Part shown: in pieces, positions 1,617 to 3,030 of the stretch | How positions within the stretch are numbered: position 1 is the first letter of the stretch | Layout: each line of letters opens with the position of its first letter | Source of the DNA: Sphingomonadales bacterium | GTDB lineage: Bacteria > Bacteroidota > Bacteroidia > Chitinophagales > Chitinophagaceae | NCBI GenBank assembly: GCA_016872195.1 | Contig: VHAT01000004.1 | Span: forward strand, 1 to 64,000 | Reading direction: 5' to 3' | Length of the DNA stretch: 64,000 nucleotides | The notes under the pieces: generated by a model | Told to the model about the DNA's origin: nothing | Database searches by the model: none | Seen by the model: the letters and a program-made list of their open reading frames with translations, nothing else | Program-made: the position numbers and the translations under genes

Positions 1617-2222
1617 TTATTTTTTAGCCCGGGTAGGGAACATATACCCGATATTGAATCCAAGTACATTATTGCTCCATTCGGTATTAGCCTCATTTTT
1701 GAGGTTTGTAATACCTTTCAAATAGTTAAGACTCAAAATAACACCGGTCTTGGATTGATATCCACCAGTGGCAATGACACCAAAATCAAAGCCCTTTACC
1801 TGGCCGGCCTCATTACCAATAGTAATTTCTTCTCTGTCTCCCAAGTAGGCGTGATGCGCAGAAAGATTGAAGCCCAAGTTAGGTCCACCGCCGATAAACC
1901 AACCTCCTTTTGTACGATACAAAACTTGTAATGGAATATCCATGGCAGCAAAACGATACTTATCTTTTTCTGTATTCACCCCTACCGCTACCCCTTTGCC
2001 CAGGAACAAGAGCTGAGACTGAAAAGAAAGCTTAGCATTGATCTTGGTATCCCAAATAGCCCCGAATTGAAAGGAGCCCAAGGCTACTCCCTCTTCGTTG
2101 ACTAAAGCATCGTTTGTTGTTACCGAACCGGAGGCCACTCCAGTCTTTAGACCAAAGCGCGTCTGAGCCGAAAGACTTAATCCGGCAAAGAGCATAAAAA
2201 CAATCAGCAGGCTAGTTTTCAT
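1617..2222 (-). CDS. Outer-membrane beta-barrel protein, PorT-like family
   Basis: This is a 201-residue secreted protein predicted to form a small outer-membrane beta-barrel (the OMP_b-brl_2/PorT-like group common in Bacteroidota). The ATG at 2222 is chosen because it starts a clean signal peptide (MKTSLLIVFMLFAG... ending SAQ); the frame extends 17 residues further without a better start. Alternating hydrophobic strands, many glycines and a C-terminus ending in GYMFPTRAKK fit a barrel. The last ~70 residues are closely matched by the C-terminus of the neighbouring gene at 2287, so the two share ancestry. Its role is unknown. Confidence 0.8.
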   Translation of the reverse strand: MKTSLLIVFMLFAGLSLSAQTRFGLKTGVASGSVTTNDALVNEEGVALGSFQFGAIWDTKINAKLSFQSQLLFLGKGVAVGVNTEKDKYRFAAMDIPLQVLYRTKGGWFIGGGPNLGFNLSAHHAYLGDREEITIGNEAGQVKGFDFGVIATGGYQSKTGVILSLNYLKGITNLKNEANTEWSNNVLGFNIGYMFPTRAKK

Positions 2223-2286: not shown

Positions 2287-3030
2287 CTATTTTTTACTAC
2301 GAGTCGGCAGCATGTATCCAATGGTAAGTCCAATTACATTGTTTTGCCAATCGAAATTGGGGGCGTTTTGCAACTGGGTCAGTCCTTTGAGATAACTAAC
2401 GCTAAGCACCACGCCTTTTTTGGAATGGTAACCACCCGAGGCCATCAAACCCAGGTCAAAACCTTTTACTTCACCGACTTCCTCGCCAATAGCTATTTCT
2501 TGAGACCGTTGAGCTGAAACGACTTGTACCGCTGACAATTGGTTGTAATGATGAGGAAGTGAAAAATTTTTAACCAGGTTCGCCTCGATCTTGACACGAA
2601 GGGAGATCGTATCACAGTCTGCATGCGTGATCAAAAAGGTATAGGTGCCCGGACAGAGATTGTAGAAATGATAATGTCCCTCCGTATCGGTCTCTGTCGA
2701 TCGCTCGATCTCCTTGATCAAAATGACGGCCTTATCAAGAGGGGCCTTCTCATCGGCATCAGCCACACTGCCCGAAAGGGTCAGCACACAAGGAGTAGTT
2801 TGACCCCATGCAGCGTGAACATCAAATGCAAAGAGCAGCATCAGAATACAAATCCACTGGCCTACAATTTTTAGCGGCTCCTTTGCATTCCACTCATCCG
2901 TTATTATGGCTTTATTTGGCAAGAAAATATTTGCAACAATATTGCAAATATAAGAAAGGGTGGTGAAACAGATAAAAAATTTATGTGCCGGGCCTTGGCG
3001 AGTAGTACTCAGCGCCAAGAATTTAACCAA
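2287..3030 (-). CDS. Chimeric protein: TonB-receptor-like N-terminal domain joined to a barrel C-terminus
   Basis: The open frame has two unrelated parts. After a hydrophobic segment ending AWGQ comes a carboxypeptidase-regulatory-like domain (LTLSGSVADADEKAPLDKAV...) ending in AVQVVSAQRSQE, which is how TonB-dependent receptors lead into their plug. The plug and receptor barrel are absent. Instead the last ~70 residues, from about EIAIGEE to GYMLPTRSKK, copy the end of the barrel protein at 1617. The start is unclear: the first ATG/GTG region at 3030 lies upstream of a promoter-like element at 2945-2952, and the ATG at 2888 is in another frame. This is probably a decayed fusion made by deletion between a receptor gene and a duplicate barrel gene. 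It may not be functional. Confidence 0.6.
   Translation of the reverse strand: MVKFLALSTTRQGPAHKFFICFTTLSYICNIVANIFLPNKAIITDEWNAKEPLKIVGQWICILMLLFAFDVHAAWGQTTPCVLTLSGSVADADEKAPLDKAVILIKEIERSTETDTEGHYHFYNLCPGTYTFLITHADCDTISLRVKIEANLVKNFSLPHHYNQLSAVQVVSAQRSQEIAIGEEVGEVKGFDLGLMASGGYHSKKGVVLSVSYLKGLTQLQNAPNFDWQNNVIGLTIGYMLPTRSKK
2945..2952 (-). promoter_or_regulatory. -7 promoter element (TATATTTG)
   Basis: A perfect match to the Bacteroidota TAnnTTTG motif on the minus strand, upstream of the chimeric gene. It would put the transcript start near 2938, downstream of the longest possible start at 3030. No convincing -33 TTTG was found. Confidence 0.4.

Follow-up and report, generated by a model that had tools for sequence, protein, structure and literature searches.

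A chimeric receptor-barrel reading frame as the probable remnant of a deleted uptake operon

In TonB-dependent receptors of the kind relevant here, a CarboxypepD_reg-like extension accompanies the plug (PF13715 + PF07715), and in the small OMP_b-brl_2 proteins of Bacteroidota (PF13568), the barrel has eight strands. Fusion pseudogenes that arise by deletion between neighbouring genes are a known kind in bacteria. The open reading frame described here lies in a window of 64,000 nucleotides (the whole stretch of DNA that was analysed) and can be compared with each of these. Its N half is homologous to the receptors and stands behind the same promoter and operator, but it comes without the plug and the large barrel, and its start codon has probably been lost. 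Its C half corresponds to the C-terminal end of one small barrel, termed barrel A, with its last three long strands, but about five strands are missing and hence no barrel would be expected. Like the deletion fusion pseudogenes, it brings two genes into one frame, with the intervening gene lost and the parents intact in relatives at the same locus; unlike them, it is still open and in frame, and its C-terminal piece appears to have a recombinant history. In the literature on chimeric genes, no paper about this locus was found by title.

The initial annotation had read this frame as a receptor N-terminus joined to the C-terminus of a barrel, and both parts of this reading hold. A CarbopepD_reg_2 domain (PF13715) scores above the Pfam cut-off with an E-value of 1.5e-12, and residues 174-247 match the neighbouring barrel (barrel B) in a genome search with 62% identity and an E-value of 2.3e-26. 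The N half corresponds approximately to residues 1-126 of the receptor and is 70% identical to the receptor of the relative G003, and the last 69 residues of the frame are those of an OMP_b-brl_2 barrel. The plug and the large C-terminal barrel of the receptor are missing, as had been noticed: the plug family PF07715 is not among the families that Pfam finds for the chimera up to an E-value of 1, the intact receptor of G003 has it, and the chimeric frame, which contains no internal stop codon, ends at 247 codons. When the tails of barrels A and B are aligned at the DNA level, as the annotation had proposed, 135/210 bases (64%) and 44/70 positions are identical over 70 aligned codons, stop included, a homology far above chance. 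Since the tails share no more than this, the two barrels are old paralogues that go back to an old duplication; a recent tandem duplication is ruled out by the same 64% identity. The coordinates of the features are collected in Table 1.

Table 1. Features of the chimeric locus, in positions of the window
Feature	Position	Strand	Basis or remark
Candidate -7 box, TATATTTG	2945..2952	-	Shared unchanged by all 5 closer relatives in the alignment
19-bp imperfect palindrome, arms TTTGCAA/TTGCAAA	2930..2948	.	Alignment and pattern search
Probable lost receptor start, CTA	2872..2874	-	33 codons before SGSV; alignment
Chimeric open reading frame	2287..3030	-	247 codons from the listed TTG (start implausible)
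CarboxypepD_reg-like domain, the N-terminal extension of the receptor	2521..2778	-	Pfam, residues 85-170
Junction, AAGA	2498..2501	-	Ungapped comparison with parents
3' terminus of barrel A, comprising 69 codons and the stop (last three long strands)	2287..2496	-	Comparison with relatives; barrel B model
Intact barrel B next to the chimera, 201 aa, OMP_b-brl_2; retained old paralogue	1617..2222	-	Pfam and comparison

The proposal that a deletion joined a receptor gene with a tandem barrel copy gains support from the intact parents found at this locus in relatives. Seven of these (G003, G002, G013, G007, G019, G046, and G045) carry, on a single contig, the order receptor, lipoprotein-like gene, and barrel, with products of 769-792, 179-185, and 201-211 aa, respectively. 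In a search of 38 genomes, the N half of the chimera matched frames of 794-805 codons in close relatives, and the C half matched frames of 204-240 codons. An intact receptor followed by two barrels, which the annotation had expected in relatives, was found in G013, where the barrels are in tandem, and in G055, where the locus is divided between two contigs, one bearing the N part of the receptor and the other the C part together with the lipoprotein gene and two barrels. In G038 and G043, receptor and lipoprotein are present without a barrel of at least 130 aa in the stretch read. The operon has the same neighbours at both ends in G003, G002, G013, and G046: on one side, what we take to be an ABC transporter gene and, on the other, a gene with a sub-threshold match to Cytochrome_CBB3 and one presumably of the DUF1501 type. 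One additional gene separates the barrel from the transporter in G007 and G045, and the surroundings of the operon differ in G019.

The receptor of G046 has 769 codons when read from a GTG at the conserved position (L060:2342-4651). The earliest ATG in this frame is deep within the gene (L060:2753), and a reading confined to ATG would clip the N-terminal domain. The intact receptor is closest to the heme/hemoglobin type (127 bits, cut-off 317) and to the ZnuD type (107 bits, cut-off 950), in both cases far below the NCBIfam cut-offs. The lipoprotein-like gene adjoins the receptor in 10 of the 42 genomes of the genus, and the copy tested gave nothing above the cut-off in Pfam or NCBIfam. In this middle gene (L021:3238-3795 and its orthologues), the segments DENEHEAINK and EDPDGDGG are conserved in the closer relatives.

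What became of the second barrel differs between genomes. In G003, 3' of barrel A (at approximately L021:2112-2497), there is a short relic whose start (ATGAAAACTAACCTGCTGATC) resembles that of barrel B and which has a stop after 12 codons. It seems that the old duplicate was lost reciprocally, with G003 having lost barrel B and kept barrel A, and the genome of the window, G000, having lost A and kept B.

Compared with G003, G002, and G013, G000 shows a net loss of 2944, 2924, and 2946 bases (about 2.9 kb), where the loss is the difference between the BLAST coordinates of the two parents and assumes the same spacing in the ancestor. Missing from G000 are the remainder of the receptor, the lipoprotein gene in full, and roughly five of the eight barrel strands; the promoter and operator and barrel B are retained. 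Thus, the receptor-barrel fusion proposed at the outset is supported, and its extent is refined by the loss of the intervening gene for a lipoprotein-like protein of about 180 aa. At the junction, where the spanning peptide is SAQRSQEIAIGEEVGEVK, the four bases AAGA occur at the corresponding place in all three barrel parents examined (G003, G002, and G013) and in two of four receptor parents (G003 and G013; not G002 and G007), and they have the same codon phase in the barrel parents as in the receptors that bear them.

Could the two parts, both real, have been misjoined in assembly or binning, with the missing genes elsewhere? The genome of 1.9 Mb is in 51 contigs, the junction lies 2.5 kb from the edge of its contig, and it has been judged from the assembled contigs. 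However, in relatives the bases common to both parents at the junction are few, too few for the usual misjoin, and the missing pieces are absent from the genome, whose listed completeness is 100% and contamination 0.49%. The receptor query finds no second copy there, its 3 matches being the N half of the chimera at 70% and, at 28% and 26%, two distant proteins, and the lipoprotein query, which as a control matches 10 of the 42 genus genomes including its own source G003, has no match. The changed start codon described below would, moreover, be independent damage. An artefact of this kind is therefore considered very unlikely.

A chimera shared at full length by relatives would be an established two-part family. 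At E <= 1e-9, the chimera query has matches in 11 of the 42 genus genomes, and only in G000 are both halves in one frame; the chimera is absent from the 41 other genomes so searched, and the 10 that match have the halves in separate frames or the N half alone. The annotation had named such a two-part protein in relatives as the observation that could overturn a recent fusion, and the search did not yield one. An established family can accordingly be given almost no credence. One candidate, L018, which reaches well into both halves, was rejected because it is not the same protein; it extends as far as the edge of its contig.

The region upstream of the receptor is well conserved. The sequence TATATTTG fits TAnnTTTG, which we take to be the -7 box of Bacteroidota, and it overlaps the palindrome, TTTGCAATATTGTTGCAAA. 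Both are identical, 5' of the receptor, in G000, G046, G003, G002, G013, and G055. A search for a degenerate form of the 19-mer, allowing up to one mismatch, gives matches in 14 of the 42 genus genomes, with one site in G000; the motif precedes the receptor gene in G000 and in seven others (G002, G003, G007, G013, G045, G046, and G055). Several of the other matches look like chance, those in G019 and G009 and one of those in G001 sitting inside genes. The palindrome is perhaps a candidate operator for a metalloregulator of the Fur/Zur type; the genome of the window has one match to the Fur family (PF01475, G000:C11:75-347).

The TTG listed as the start of the chimera does not seem plausible, being upstream of this conserved promoter and operator, and the receptor-derived frame should begin near position 2874. 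There, 33 codons before the residues SGSV, all five closer relatives (G046, G003, G002, G013, and G055) have ATG or GTG, and G000 has CTA; the distance from the operator to this position is 55 nt in G000 versus 28-36 nt in the closer relatives. The alignment thus points to a probable loss of the receptor start codon in G000. The more distant G007 and G045 weaken this argument: they, too, are without a start codon there, which shows that its position is not fixed. Alternative starts in G000 are a TTG 49 codons before SGSV, which follows the operator by 7 nt, an ATG at 22 codons, and a GTG at 4 codons; judged by eye, none of these would give a normal signal peptide, and the leader that follows the ATG has no charged start. 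Loss of the start by a frameshift near an out-of-frame ATG was considered and dropped for the simpler explanation that the conserved start position reads CTA.

The number of strands left was read from a model of barrel B built from eight sequences (mean pLDDT 71.9), which has eight long strands and a short element at 130-134 that was counted as a loop. The model resembles barrels of the OmpA/OmpX type in the PDB (best E-value 1.3e-6; the five best matches have a TMq of 0.50-0.60). Residue 133 is the counterpart of the junction, and after it three of the eight long strands follow; on this model, three strands would be unable to close a barrel. The chimera itself, for which the receptor rows of the alignment were cut to 67 residues, was modelled with a mean pLDDT of 38.8; values are 25-34 across the C part and reach no more than 54-60 in the N domain. 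Since even the known domain is poorly modelled, this model speaks neither for a working product nor against one.

The annotation had left the choice between a dying gene and a new small outer-membrane protein, and of these the dying gene fits better, with the start position lost and about three of eight strands left. For a new protein to exist, the frame would have to be translated from another start and exported, and its periplasmic CarboxypepD_reg domain would be anchored or delivered by the three C-terminal strands. The open frame, the in-frame junction, and the kept promoter and operator speak for such a protein, as does the low omega on the branch of G000 in both halves. That omega, fitted with a purpose-written codon model, is 0.052 against a background of 0.073 in the N half (2dlnL 0.37) and 0.147 against 0.060 in the C half (2dlnL 1.47), on alignments that retained 7 of 8 rows for the N half (without G045) and 6 of 10 for the C half (without G007, G045, and two B copies). 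Neutrality (omega = 1) is rejected for both halves (2dlnL 23.7 and 5.62, respectively), and rejection of omega = 0.5 is not reached for the C half (2.95); no significant relaxation on the G000 branch was found in either half by these models. Because the branches tested include time before the fusion, low omega in both halves is as compatible with a recent fusion as with one under constraint. Against a new protein stand the starts already described, none with a normal signal peptide, the three strands, and an occurrence in 1 of 42 genomes, so we regard it as improbable. A more elaborate form has in our estimate a very slight probability: a newborn protein whose periplasmic domain, derived from the receptor and expressed under the control of a metal-responsive operator, would be carried to the outer membrane by three strands that include the C-terminal targeting strand and close only by oligomerising. 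The chimera is most likely a dying or dead remnant.

The C-terminal piece has an unexpected history. Between 2200 and 2501, G000 is 90% identical to G003 in DNA, against 70-73% in the flanking genes and 76% in the N half. Because part of this block is the leader of barrel B, which is similar in G055 too, the synonymous difference of the coding part (pS) is the fairer figure: between G000 and G003, it is 0.252 over the 69 codons of the C half versus 0.744 in the N half, 0.858 in the ABC gene, 0.775 in the DUF1501 gene, and 0.830 in the CBB3-like gene. The piece would thus share recent ancestry with the otherwise distant G003, and recombination would have reshuffled the locus.

One explanation is that an incoming barrel A tail made the join itself, by homology on the barrel side and an illegitimate join in the receptor (homology-facilitated illegitimate recombination, the subject of PMC3240628). 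Both the identity between 2501 and 2200 and the low pS of the C half favour this. However, the barrel A tails of G003 and G013 are also close (pS 0.435 versus 0.74-0.87 in three flanking genes), and because of this, import into G003 from a donor resembling G000 appears to be the simpler reading, with the coincidence of block and junction arising because the left side was lost. Recombined windows also occur elsewhere in the operon: between G003 and G013, pS falls to 0.28 in codons 480-540 of the receptor and 60-120 of the lipoprotein, and such mosaic distances along the operon (L021 and L023) suggest that pieces of it may be exchanged between species. In the AU test, moreover, the flank topology remains acceptable for the C half (p 0.069) and is rejected for the N half (p 0.026). 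In the tree of the C half (8 taxa), support is 31-69 with one node at 100, and G000 and G003 are not strictly sisters; the trees of both halves rest on alignments too short to prove exchange. Joining by an incoming tail is accordingly held to be unlikely. If the tail was instead imported into G003, the barrel A of the donor was still intact, and the fusion would then be younger than the split of G000 and G003 in this segment.

That the feature is real and came about by deletion is well supported, and we are nearly certain of it. The ancestor would have had an uptake operon consisting of the TonB-dependent receptor, the lipoprotein-like gene, barrel A, and then barrel B. Comparison with the relatives shows that the net loss brought the receptor sequence, at approximately codon 126, up against the part of barrel A that encodes its last three strands; the join presumably arose by illegitimate recombination, perhaps at the 4-base microhomology AAGA. 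The join may be in frame by a one-in-three chance or through shared bases in the same codon phase; AAGA, if present in the ancestor in one phase, would explain it. With the start seemingly lost, neither plug nor TonB-gated barrel, and strands too few for closure, a functional protein is probably not made, and the frame may still be open because the fusion is young. Barrel B presumably carries on the role of the small barrel. The explanation as a whole, that of an uptake-operon remnant left by the deletion of about 2.9 kb and without a functional product, is in our judgement a probable one.

The locus would then be an ordinary kind of gene loss in an unusually clear form: the loss of an uptake operon from a small environmental genome is well resolved, and comparison with relatives reveals both parents, roughly where the junction lies, and the promoter that was retained. 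Annotators may also take it as a warning that a clean two-part frame of 247 codons can be debris. If the frame were translated, it would provide a natural test of the minimum number of strands with which a barrel fragment is handled by the outer-membrane assembly machinery.
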